From positions 3,522,501-3,586,500 of the forward strand of contig CP126205.1 in NCBI GenBank assembly GCA_030272155.1: a stretch of 64,000 nt of DNA. Direction: 5' to 3'. Under the pieces are notes generated by a model. It did not search any database and had not been told where the DNA came from. It was given only the letters and a program-made list of their open reading frames with translations. Position 1 is the first letter of the stretch, and each line of letters starts with the position of its first letter. The position numbers and the translations under genes were made by a program. Shown here piece after piece: positions 29,098 through 63,967 of the stretch. Source of the DNA: Tetradesmus obliquus (lineage: Eukaryota; Chlorophyta; Chlorophyceae; Sphaeropleales; Scenedesmaceae).

Positions 29098-31088
29098 TGT
29101 ACAATTTGAACTTAATGAACTCAATTGAACCACGGCTACGGAGTTCAGGGAGTGATGCGATGCTTGCAGGTGATCACAGAAGCAGCAGGTGTATGTTACT
29201 GTGCAGTACAAGAGCCCTCCTCTGGCGTGCGTAGCTCGTCTGTACATTCTATCTTATACTCTTGCCACAACAAATACTGCACGTTATGTGGTCAGCTAAG
29301 AAGCTGCACCCGAACGATCATCAGTATGACAGTGTGACATGTGCACTGTCAGCATGCTGACATACCACACAAATGCTGCGGACATCACGTCCATGCTGCT
29401 GTGGGCGGACCAGACACGCCCTGCTAGCATCACCCAGGTGAAACGAATGCCTGCACACACATGAACACACTGCGTGGCTGGATGACAGCAAACCCTAGGC
29501 CTCAACATCACCGTAACACAGTGCGACACTATGGTATGCAATGCATCATGGCTGCAACGCTGCATGCAGGTTGAAAATCTTGATGCTGCAGCCCCAGAAC
29601 CATCCACGCTGGTGAGCGCTGCCCAGTCCTAGTGCTGCTCCAAGGCAGCCAAAGGACACTCACACTGACCAACATCGTTTGACGCTACAACACAACTATC
29701 AACATTGCAAGGTCGCTGTGCAACAATGTGGCACAGTGCCATGCACGCAGCGTTGCTTCAACTCAATTTAACTAGGCATTTAAATAGACATCTGGGATGC
29801 AGCAAAGCGAGCGTGCGGCAGTCAGGACTGCAGCTTATGGTCATTGGCATCTGCTGCATAAAGAAACAGGACACAATTGCAGGTATATAGCTGCAAAGAG
29901 CTGCCTGTCCCAGGCTGCCACGGGTGGCGCAGGCAAGGGAGCTGAGGTCATGCGAACAGCTAAACACCAGAGCAGTGCAATTTGCCACGTGTGGCAAGCA
30001 GCAGCCTGCTGACTGCAGCAGTGGGTCACGCTGCTGATACACACAGAAACACAAGCTGTGACAAATGGGCGTGCAGCCCCTGCAGAGCAAGCAGGAGCAG
30101 TTGCAAACCACTTCAACACCGCAGTAACAGCGTCACCCGATGGCAACAAGCAAAAGAACTTTTGTTTAAACGCAAAGCAGTGCCAAGTGGCAGTCGCAGA
30201 GTCCCAAACCCACGCATACAGATCAACCAGCATACATACGCACACTCAACCATATCTTGATTGCGTTTCCTCACACACACTGTCTCCCCTCTGCAGCACG
30301 TGCTGTTGCCAGAAGTGCACTGCAGGGAGCTACAGCAACAGCCAGGCAGGCGCCAACAAGCCCCACACCCTTAGTGACTTAGACAGCTGCAGACTCGTGG
30401 CACACAACGTGAGAAACACAGATAACACTCCGCTAAAGCACACAACGTACACAAAGAACATGACAATGTACATTTGCCAGGCTGCCAGCTCAAAGACTGC
30501 CACTGCGTGCATATGCACACGCAGCAGCAGCTGCTGCACCTGGTAGCTGCCACCAACCCAGCCCGACGCCCCTGTGGCGTGTGAGGGCGGAGGCATAACC
30601 CTGCAACGCTGCTGGTAGCACTTCTACCCAATGGTTGTCATCCCACAGCGGTAAACAACCTGCTGCACCTTTGCTCTCTCCCAAGCACTGCCGCAGGCAG
30701 CCGCCCCACCCGTAGGTCCCTGCCAGGTGCATGTTGCAGCCCAGCCTGCGCCACTCAGCACACCCGCCCAAGCCCGTCACTACATGGGACAGCCAGCACA
30801 ACCGCAGGCACCATTCAGGTGAATCGCAAGCGCCTGGTGAATCTCGCCACCCAACATCCCACCACAGCCCCTCCTAAGCCCCTTAGCCAGCGCAGAAACG
30901 CCGCCACAAGGCACCATGCAAGTGCCGGACCAACGCTGGTGCAAAACGCCACCCACCCCTCTGCACCAACTCAGCCCTCAGCCTGCCCAGCAGCTGCTGC
31001 ACCTGGGGCTCGTACAGCTCCAGTATGACTGGCCGGCGCGGCTTCACGATGCAGCGCAGCTTGCACTGCTCAGCACACCCGCCTGAGC
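29098..31088. other. Intergenic between HAD gene and acyl-ACP synthetase
   Basis: This holds the upstream region of the HAD gene and the 3' flank of the synthetase. I recognise no further gene. At about 30,955-31,050 lies a degenerate second copy of the last synthetase exon (reads [20 protein letters not shown]), beyond the real stop at 31,089. Confidence 0.6.
30955..31050 (-). repeat. Partial copy of last synthetase exon (3' edge)
   Basis: It reads VKPRRPVILELYEPQVQQLL, against [20 protein letters not shown] in the real exon at 31,089-31,214. It lies downstream of the real exon in the transcript direction. Confidence 0.8.
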
Positions 31089-61532: not shown

Positions 61533-63967
61533 TTGCAACTCAGCACAGCACGGTGGCCGGGACTTCCAGCAGCATCGCAAAAGTTTAGTGCGTTCATAAC
61601 ATCTGCACTGCAAGCGAGCGAGATGCGCGGGCGAGCTGGAGCGAGCGCAGCAGTAAGACAAGAGGCCAGGCCTGACGCCCAGCAGGCACTCGCATGGCTC
61701 GAACAGCTCAACAGCATGCAGCTGTCCGAATTAGACGCTGGCTGGCTGAATCGGAGCAACGCAATCAGCATGGCTGTACTCAGGCCCCACGCCCAAGCCC
61801 AGGTGGCAGCAATGCTTGAGCTGATATGCTCAGCAGCCTGCAAACTACTGAACTTCCTGTGCCTGGAAAGTGGAGTGACTCAAAGCATGGGTATCAGCAG
61901 AGATCGCGCAGGCAGCCCAGCTCGTGGCAGCGGTGACAGCAGCAGCAGCAGCAGCAGCAGCAGCAGCAGCAGCAGCAGCAGCAGCAGCAGACTGGCAGCA
62001 GCAGCAGCAGCAGCAGCAGCAGCAGCAGCGCCCCCAGTGCAGGGGCAGGGCCCAGGAGTGTTGCAGCAAGCCTAGTGGCTAACTTCCTCAAGGACACACG
62101 AGCATGCATTGAAGACCTCGCAGCCAGAGACCCACAGCTATTCCCCAGACTGGCTTTGCGGGTGCTTGTCGACACGGGTGAGCCATTGCCAGCAGCAAGC
62201 CTGTGCAGCATCGCCCATTGTGTTGTATGCGTGTGTTCAATGACGCAGCAGTTGACAGGGACTGGCTGCAGGCAGTGCAGCAGTGACTGGCTGCAGGCGT
62301 TGCAGGTTGCAGCAGCCTGAGCTGTAGCAGGGGTCCCTTGTCTGGTCTGAGCTTTTGCGAGAGCACAGACCATACACACTGCTCTTCTGAACACACAGCA
62401 GGTTCAGCGCAGGCATGACACGAATGCGGCACGCCCCCCTCTCTGCTGCTGCAGGGCTGATGGGCAGCCTGGCAGGCCGCATGCAGTGGACAGCTGGCCA
62501 GCTGCAGCAGACCAAGCAGCAGCAGCAGCAGCAGCAGCAGCAGCGGCAGTGGGCACTTCACATGCGTTCAGTGGGTGCGTCGCTGCTGACGATATGGGCA
62601 TGCTGCAAGAACGTCATCCACAAGGATGCAGCTGAGATGCGCAGCACGCGCATGGTGAAGGAATTCGCAGCGCTGCTGCTGCCTGCTGCCAGGCTCGTAT
62701 GGCGCCTTGTGGAGACGTTGCCACCAACCGCAGCAGGCAGCAGCAGCAGCAGCAGTGTTCAGGCGCGCCCTCTATCAGCAGGCGTGCCAGCAGCTGCAGT
62801 TGCCTCAGACGCAGATAAGCAGCTGCTGCTCCTTGCTACACAGTTTGGCACGTATGCTGTATGTGTGCTAGGGGGCGATTCAGCCTTTGCATTCCCTGCT
62901 GAGGCTGCCTGCAGTGATGAGTTGGCGCAGGTGCTGCTGCTGTACCTCGCATGCACAGCAGCCTGCACCAGGCAGCTGCAGACCAACGCCAGGTCCGCTG
63001 CCACAGCATCAGGTGGCAACAGCAGCAAGAGTGACAGGGGCAGCAGCAGCAGCAGCAGCAGCAGGCGCAGCAGTTCTTCTGCCGCACAGGCCAGCAGCAG
63101 CCAAGGCAGCACAGATGTCCCACCACACCACATGGCGCTGCTGTCTGCGCTGGCGCCCGTGCTGCAGCAGCCACCCATCTTCCCTGCTGGGCTGGAAGAG
63201 CACGTGCAGCAGCTGGCAGCACTTGCTGCACCCTCCCTGTCGGTTGTGTCTGGCTTCCTGGTGCAACGCACACAGCTCCTGCAGCACAGCCAGGCGCCGC
63301 CAGCAGCAGCAGCCGCAGCAGCCAGCAGCAGCAGCAGCAGCAGTGCAGCAGCGCCCCTCGGTGGCATGCTGCCTCGTGACGAGCTGCTGCTGCCGCTGCT
63401 GCTGACGATTGCGGAGCTGGCGGCGCTGCAGCCGCCACGCAGGGCGGCGCTGCTGCCTGCTGCGGGCAGCTTTATGGTGGCACTACTTAATGAGCAGTGC
63501 GAGCAGCTGATGCCATCTGCAGCTACAGCGAGCGCCAGCGCAGCAGCAGCGCCTGTGCCGGCTGCCGCAGCAGCAGTTGCTGTCGCGCTTGTGGAGCCGG
63601 TGCTGCTGCAGCTGGTGCTTCGTGGCTGCATACCTTGGAGGAGGCGGCGCAGCAGCAGCCACGCCTGCAGCGGGCAGCAGTGCAGATGCCGAGGCTGCGG
63701 AGCGGGATGAACGGCTGGCGATCAGCTACCTGCTGCTGATGGTGGTGGTGCTGCAACACGGTGAGTGGCCTGCCTGCTGCTGCTGCTACTGCTGCTGCTG
63801 TTGCTGCTGCTGATGGTGGTGGTGCTGCTGCTGATGGTGGTGGTGCTGCAACACGGTGAGTGGCCTGCCTGCTGCTGCTGCTGCTGCTGCTGCTGCTGCT
63901 GATGCTGGTGGTGCTGCAACACGGTGAGTGGCCTGCCTGCTGCTGCGTCCAACAGCGCCAGCTGAGT
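61533..63967 (+). CDS. Unrecognised Ala/Gln/Ser-rich protein, runs off window
   Basis: I do not recognise this protein. A first exon opens at 61,533 (or the ATG at 61,623: MRGRAGASAAVRQEARPDAQ). After a long CAG run (61,938-62,030) the frame that continues sensibly (VANFLKDTRACIEDLAARDP) is a different one, ending at a donor at 62,177 (acgg|gtgagc). It joins in phase to an exon from 62,455 (GLMGSLAGRMQWTAGQ). That exon is mostly predicted helix with poly-Gln/Ser inserts, including NVIHKDAAEMRSTRMVKEFA and DKQLLLLATQFGTYAVCVLG. Near 63,640 another frame (AEAAERDERLAISYLLLMVV) takes over up to a donor at about 63,761. Two frame changes could mean hidden splicing, sequence errors in repeats, or decay. 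Coordinates are approximate. Confidence 0.5.
63820..63935 (+). repeat. Two partial copies of the preceding exon end (3' edge)
   Basis: The exon end and donor (gtggtggtgctgcaacacg|gtgagtgg) at about 63,737-63,768 recurs at about 63,836-63,863 and 63,907-63,933, each followed by a CTG run. Confidence 0.88.

Follow-up and report, generated by a model that had tools for sequence, protein, structure and literature searches.

Introns of the green alga Tetradesmus obliquus harbour many partial copies of the edges of their neighbouring exons, and this exon-edge copying is a genome-wide phenomenon. We analysed it in a stretch of 64,000 nucleotides (hereafter the window; positions 3522501-3586500 of contig C15 in a 104.66 Mb genome of 17 contigs) and in a sample of six other contigs. 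A three-step account, which we hold with moderate confidence, combines local direct duplication, a rule of sides imposed by geometry, and a slow decay of the copied edges.

Gene models were read from the sequence for eIF2D (52822..59456, plus strand, 11 coding exons), VPS52 (44379..52248, minus strand, 17 coding exons) and an acyl-ACP/long-chain acyl synthetase (AAS; 31089..39142, minus strand, 14 exons modelled, without the N-terminal exon(s)); their 42 exons form the curated set. The proteins P0001 (VPS52), P0121 (AAS) and P0241 (eIF2D) align to the three models over their full length, apart from the missing AAS N-terminus. The VPS52 model equals T. obliquus protein P0001 (100% identity) over 776 residues, the sole difference being three residues in a Q run; AAS is matched by P0121 and P0123 (97%), and the eIF2D model agrees with the orthologues P0241 (96%, no insertions) and P0242 (81%, insertions of 1-4 residues only). 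The eIF2D protein of Scenedesmus sp. NREL 46B-D3 shows 81% identity.

Each exon was aligned to its own flanking introns, or to 400 nt past the first or last exon, with low complexity masked, and a Smith-Waterman score of at least 50 was required to call a copy. This revealed 27 partial exon copies at the 42 exons, located in flanking introns or just past a stop codon. None was found in the controls (0/84 reverse-complemented own flanks, 0/420 unrelated introns, 0/1680 dinucleotide shuffles), where the top score was 39. All 27 lie on the expected side: 13 upstream copies carry the 5′ part of the exon and 14 downstream copies its 3′ part. The upstream copies all start at exon nt 1-11 and the downstream copies all reach the exon end or fall short of it by up to 5 nt; under the 6-nt cut-off of the genome sample 26 of 27 pass, the near copy of AAS exon 11 (which starts at exon nt 11) being the one that fails. 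Every copy is partial, and none comprises a complete exon. When positions 27001-64000 were compared with themselves by BLASTN, 28 of the 30 non-self pairs were direct, at distances of 92-513 bp, and two were inverted. The preliminary description of this DNA, which had proposed such a self-comparison and had counted at least 25 copies in four genes, is thus borne out: 27 were found in three of the four genes it named, and the last gene of the window shows two more as tandem repeats.

In AAS (minus strand), copies of a 3′ part with its donor lie downstream of exon 5 (36317..36433, score 113), exon 9 (near copy 34200..34325, score 148; far copy 33978..34105, score 150) and exon 13 (near, 31672..31855, score 188; far, 31416..31600, score 176). 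Upstream of exon 11 there are two 5′-part copies, a far one with the acceptor (33227..33337, score 122) and the near one from exon nt 11 (33026..33126, score 142), and a copy of the 3′ part of the last exon is found past the stop codon (30971..31052, score 93). VPS52, also on the minus strand, has 3′-part copies with donor of exon 2 (51465..51507, score 61), exon 7 (48714..48797, score 143), exon 10 (copy 1, 47286..47344, score 98; copy 2, 47169..47217, score 63) and exon 16 (44821..44865, score 57), a third copy of the 3′ part of exon 10 that lacks the last 5 nt of the exon (47051..47105, score 62), and a copy of the 3′ end of exon 17 past the stop codon (44324..44361, score 51). Its 5′-part copies with acceptor belong to exon 8 (48413..48451, score 73) and exon 17 (far, 44662..44701, score 75; near, 44575..44614, score 75). 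On the plus strand, eIF2D contains 5′-part copies with acceptor of exon 6 (55355..55420, score 92), of exon 8 in a series of four (56701..56729, score 53; 56813..56841, score 58; 56924..56957, score 58; 57018..57051, score 58) and of exon 9 (far, 58140..58189, score 60), 5′-part copies that begin at exon nt 3 of exon 7 (56063..56090, score 51) and at exon nt 4 of exon 9 (near, 58247..58322, score 102), and one 3′-part copy with the donor of exon 10 (59035..59087, score 61). By sequence inspection, the last gene (plus strand) has two 3′-edge copies with donor at 63825..63923, after a presumed exon end near 63760, as tandem repeats with periods of 95 and 68.

Copying is not confined to the window. 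A home-made, seed-trained gene finder recovered 36 of the 42 curated exons exactly at intron penalties of -11 and -13, with the curated genes being its training set; it was applied at a penalty of -12 to 250 kb from contigs C1-C6, where it predicted 28 genes with 249 exons (self-trained versions lost accuracy and merged genes, and were dropped). The same comparison of exons with their own introns, which the preliminary description had also suggested as a check, yielded 74 copies at these 249 exons and 0/442 in the control. Among the 74, 56 are clean and lie on the expected side, 11 are mid-exon matches, 4 are whole exons and 3 lie on the opposite side; the last three look like cases located at copies mis-predicted as exons, or beside a whole-exon copy. 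Local pairs per 50 kb in C1-C4 are overwhelmingly direct (36/25/11/42 direct vs 0/0/3/2 inverted; 114 vs 5 in 200 kb).

These counts correspond to the first step of the account: the T. obliquus genome holds many short local direct duplications, and each one straddling an exon edge leaves an intact exon together with a partial copy, splice site included, in the adjoining intron. The second step follows from logic as well as from counts. When the tail of an intron and the start of an exon are duplicated, the rest of the exon follows the second acceptor only, so that a truncated 5′ copy is placed upstream; in the mirror case, in which an exon end and an intron start are duplicated, truncated 3′ copies come to lie downstream, and other arrangements break the exon. 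The rule of sides is therefore the only geometry that keeps the real exon complete. The preliminary description had taken this rule as strict; as an observation it stands (27/27 curated copies, 56 clean and rule-obeying cases and 3/74 opposite in the sample), while as a sign of something special it falls away, since tandem geometry forces it once the real exon stays intact. It shows only that duplication is direct and local and that the real exon is under purifying selection.

In 48 of 50 exon-side clusters the splice site of the nearest copy is 92-270 nt from the real one, and some clusters are arrays of up to five copies with near-constant spacing. Among the 54 nearest copies, 52 have a spacer of no less than 43 nt between their exon-derived part and the real splice site (spacer quartiles 57.5, 69 and 101); the two shorter spacers (17 and 36 nt) come after stop codons. 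For acceptor-side copies, to which this reading is limited, such spacing fits the need for a branch point and a pyrimidine tract.

Copies of exon edges are also 2-4 times as frequent as copies of intron windows. In an equal-effort control with 60-nt windows and introns of 260-1500 nt, the last 60 nt of an exon had a copy in the adjoining intron in 33/127 cases and the first 60 nt in 21/138, compared with 10/137, 8/128 and 9/147 for windows within introns and 5/93 and 5/100 for deeper exon windows. We counted 54 junction clusters versus 9 of 247 introns with intron-only duplications. A model with random placement, viability rules and half the visible life for intron-only pairs predicts a junction share of 0.51-0.56, while 54/63 was observed (P-value between 6e-9 and 4e-7), the units of the comparison being clusters on one side and introns on the other.

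The evolution of the copies was followed in 83 copy-exon pairs forming 54 exon-side clusters, with 18 of the 74 sample matches (middle, whole and opposite) excluded. Ten of the 83 alignments do not exactly reach the exon edge and were left out of the splice-site and intron-homology counts, which use the remaining 73 pairs. Decoy splice sites do arise, as had been proposed: the splice dinucleotide is intact in 68 of 72 copies adjoining a real splice site (AG in 27/27, GT in 41/45). The copy of AAS exon 14 behind the stop codon belongs to the 73 pairs and has no real donor; its chance GT is excluded and would otherwise make the count 42/46. Copy donor scores exceed those expected from neutral decay at d = 0.055 (P-value = 0.01), and at the same d the retention of all 27 AG has a P-value of 0.03. 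Homology beyond the splice site is often short: it covers at most 13 nt of intron in 40 of 73 copies, a share that is 34/50 among the farthest copies and 23/34 among single ones. It is long in many copies internal to arrays. In a neutral tandem simulation, 5-15% of copies have such short intron homology.

Mismatches between copies and exons are concentrated at third codon positions (111/1720, 95/1718 and 310/1722 at positions 1, 2 and 3). The ratio of divergence at positions 1 and 2 to that at position 3 is 0.33 (0.27-0.40, bootstrapped clusters), 0.29 for the nearest copies alone and 0.37 (0.25-0.50) for the pairs of the window. If a copy is neutral and its exon can change at synonymous sites only, about 0.5-0.6 is expected, and neutral forward simulations passed through the same pipeline gave 0.51-0.71. 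Synonymous changes make up 304 of 512 copy-exon differences, compared with an expected share of 0.40-0.43. Because the simulations miss both the observed ratio and the fraction of copies with short homology, simple duplication followed by neutral decay is incomplete. This divides the earlier proposal of junction duplication: direct local copying with survival of one complete exon is retained, and neutral decay alone fails on the ratio and the homology data. Two simulations in which old, constrained copies evolved at 0.25-0.35 of the neutral rate gave ratios of 0.35-0.36 and short-homology fractions of 0.58 and 0.69, so the data resemble old copies with a rate in roughly this range. In the third step of the account, which we infer from these sequence statistics, the intronic part of the duplicated unit would diverge past recognition, while the exon edge and the splice dinucleotide would last longer. 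The decay of copy edges seems to run at about a third of the pace of the surrounding intron, with some tests disagreeing. Slow decay does not preserve the reading frame (13 of 17 gapped copies are net frameshifted) and so does not reflect ordinary use of alternative coding exons. It may come from weak selection on splice-like edges or from repeated recombination with the constrained exon, and we lean slightly towards the former.

Several observations weigh against slow decay or against the size of the edge effect. Thirty-nine pairs have 30 nt or more of intron that can be aligned; in this subset, which is biased to young pairs, divergence at positions 1 and 2 amounts to 0.53 (0.32-0.76) of that in the intron, near the 0.5 expected of neutral copies. 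At sites unable to be in CpG the codon-position ratio is 0.57 (0.40-0.82), a neutral value, from a split that is confounded with codon degeneracy. Taken alone, GT retention (41/45) is consistent with d = 0.055, and copy acceptor scores have dropped further than neutral decay predicts. Neutral spaced insertion of exon edges, with no constraint at all, gives a short-homology fraction of 0.90, though it misses the ratio (0.60), and a younger constrained simulation (0.35 of the neutral rate) reaches a ratio of 0.39 with a short-homology fraction of merely 0.23. The old constrained simulations overshoot gaps (12-13 per kb vs 5.8 observed) and undershoot splice-site retention (0.81-0.87 vs 0.94). 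About half of the exon-edge excess, a factor of about 2, is expected from the slower decay of pairs with a constrained member. Finally, the sample exons are predictions of our home-made gene finder.

The closest competitor is a purely neutral history, possible though clearly less probable than the three-step account, in which tandem duplication across a junction, or the spaced insertion of an exon edge, produces copies that then decay freely. It gains from the divergence at positions 1 and 2 being about half that of introns in the 39 pairs and from the ratio of 0.57 outside CpG-capable sites; 24 of 30 gap lengths are not multiples of 3 and the gapped copies are mostly frameshifted, as free decay would have it, the rule of sides is automatic, and the spaced-insertion version yields the short intron homology. 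It leaves unexplained the ratio of 0.33 (simulated, 0.51-0.71), the 40/73 copies with short homology (5-15% under tandem duplication) and the preponderance of junction clusters (54, compared with 9 introns whose duplications are intron-only). Recombination or slippage between repeats might instead homogenise the copies with the constrained exon while partnerless flanks drift. Such exchange would account for the shrinkage of homology to the exon edge and splice site and for arrays of near-constant period, but by argument (no simulation was made) the ratio should then stay near 0.6 rather than 0.33, and we find this explanation doubtful. A little more doubtful still is the wider proposition that selection keeps edge copies with working splice sites, which would form a genome-wide layer of decoys that tunes or insulates splicing, with introns growing mainly in this way.

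Regular use of the copies as alternative exons or splice sites in protein-coding messenger RNAs would explain why 68 of 72 splice dinucleotides are intact and why the frame of the exon is open in 76 of 83 copies, compared with 53/83 and 42/83 for the other frames. Stop codons are depleted as well (2 vs 8.5 expected, P-value = 0.008, all pairs), an effect that is weaker for the nearest copies (2 vs 4.8, P-value = 0.14) and in the window alone (1 vs 3.4, P-value = 0.14). The reading frame is not maintained, however: although 66 of 83 copies are gapless, 13 of the 17 gapped ones are net frameshifted, and of 50 nearest junction distances, tallied by hand, 12 are divisible by 3. Inner boundaries of the 54 nearest copies have no consistent splice consensus by eye, and P0001, P0121, P0123 and P0241 carry no insertion of more than 3 residues; we regard regular alternative exons as unlikely. 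An artefact of assembly, in which pieces of another, diverged haplotype or strain were misjoined beside the real exon, would fit the richness of the copy-exon differences in synonymous changes (304/512) and the residues that the near copy of AAS exon 9 shares with P0123 and that are absent from the window's own exon. We judge it very unlikely in view of the arrays of up to five copies with roughly constant spacing, the net frameshift that 13 of the 17 gapped copies show, the occurrence of 83 cases in less than 300 kb, the unbroken exons of the curated genes and the presence of zero N bases in the window or the C1-C4 sample. The Rogers model, in which introns are born by tandem duplication of an exon segment bearing AGGT, predicts the same sides and is an established model (PMC4974935, PMC2891723). 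Under this model a copy must start at the new intron's donor or stop at its acceptor. The copies here lie inside introns with an AG or GT of their own, and for 52 of the 54 nearest ones the spacer measures 43-205 nt; no new intron runs from the GT of one copy to the AG of the other, and the model is scarcely credible as an explanation of these introns.

We call the exon-edge copies a variant of tandem-duplication-driven intron evolution. In plants, paired nicks and patch-mediated repair of breaks produce direct duplications of roughly 100 bp, some of which contain filler, and the duplications seen here, similar in being direct and of this order, may have such an origin, paired-nick repair being an example suggested by this general background. 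We know of no exon-edge preference in paired-nick or patch-mediated duplication. Pseudoexons and decoy splice sites are intronic splice-like sites adjoining exon-like sequence; the decoys described here differ in being recognisable copies of the adjacent exon's own edge. Internal gene duplication, including tandem exon duplication, is reportedly treated by Gao and Lynch (2009); it shares with our case the intragenic duplication of exon sequence, but here nearly all copies are partial exons with one edge, and a whole exon was copied in 4 of 74 sample cases and in none of the 27 in the window. Intron gain by tandem duplication (Hellsten 2011; potato RdRp, PMC4974935) has in common direct tandem duplication around splice signals; in our case the copy stays in an existing intron, no new intron is formed and the exon is unchanged. 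The potato paper describes a duplicated segment of RdRp that spans the upstream intron-exon structure, and a further intronic duplication of 83 bp without effect (PMC4974935). The system of PMC2891723 likewise involves partial exon duplication with splice-like motifs, but there the copy was intronised from coding sequence, whereas here pre-existing exon-intron junctions are copied. Among the matches listed in the open-access literature, no title or opening of an abstract describes exon-edge copies of this sort in Tetradesmus or another green alga.

If the edge bias and the slow decay hold, T. obliquus would provide a naturally occurring series of splice-site duplicates that differ widely in age, each beside its intact original. 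Such a series could serve to measure how decoy donors and acceptors are ignored and how introns lengthen, and could show in which direction, if any, splicing exerts selection on nearby copies. If decay is neutral, the copies could still lead gene finders astray in T. obliquus, and likewise alignments based on exons. The exon-edge excess and the slow decay are the parts that deserve attention, the rule of sides being already explained by geometry.

In 5 of the 27 curated copies, all in AAS, there are 7-residue words that are not in the window's own protein and occur in at least one of 12 relatives checked, where they occupy ordinary exon positions. One of the AAS copies, the near copy of exon 9 (34200..34325), encodes residues that match the T. 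obliquus AAS protein P0123 and not the window's own exon. We read the AAS words as ancestral residues that the copy may have retained, or as possible exchange between copy and exon. A paralogue as the source of the copies was considered and rejected: among the best candidates, P0123 matches this locus alone at high identity, and two other contigs at 34-39%. Mobile filler was rejected for the spacer of VPS52 exon 7, the only spacer tried, which has no second match in the genome.

A rise of divergence with distance from the real exon, proposed in the preliminary description, is unconvincing (15 comparisons of adjacent copies up, 9 down, 5 ties). Context mutability was tried as a cause of the third-position excess and discarded, as rates derived from introns predict 1.04/1.04/0.99 for the three positions, with no position effect. 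A gradient towards the splice site was also given up: the proximal/distal divergence is 0.70 (0.52-0.92) at positions 1 and 2 but 1.14 (0.90-1.40) at position 3. An initial polarisation of changes by ‘near-unique’ copies (codon positions 12/9/34, P-value = 1e-5) was replaced, as the nearest copy is not necessarily the youngest; ranking by similarity gave 14/11/22 (P-value = 0.038). The tally of changes on the copy branch (45 synonymous, 42 not) has the same weakness as the ‘near-unique’ polarisation and was dropped.

Other features were observed in the window. In the splice matrices, many acceptors of eIF2D, VPS52 and AAS have CTG repeats leading into CTGCAG, so that the pyrimidine tract is partly a trinucleotide repeat. 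A CACG tetranucleotide run at 57213-57825 (153 units, 99% matching) occupies much of an eIF2D intron, and an eIF2D intron also contains interstitial telomere-like repeats (TTTAGGG and its inverse) at 58008-58070, where TTTAGGGTTT has one occurrence per strand compared with 0.1 expected. An array of a 19-bp unit (18.7 copies) lies between eIF2D and the last gene at 59771-60126. The minus strand has an open frame of 871 codons at 40731-43346, with abundant Gln/Ser repeats and no Pfam match. Positions 1-27000 are densely filled with repeated pieces resembling non-LTR (long terminal repeat) retrotransposons, with poly-A/T runs and a 312-bp satellite, and 61.5% of this sequence falls within local direct pairs. 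We assume that it may be a pericentromeric cluster of long interspersed nuclear elements; one open reading frame there has a weak zf-RVT match (E-value 2.8e-5, under the Pfam cut-off).

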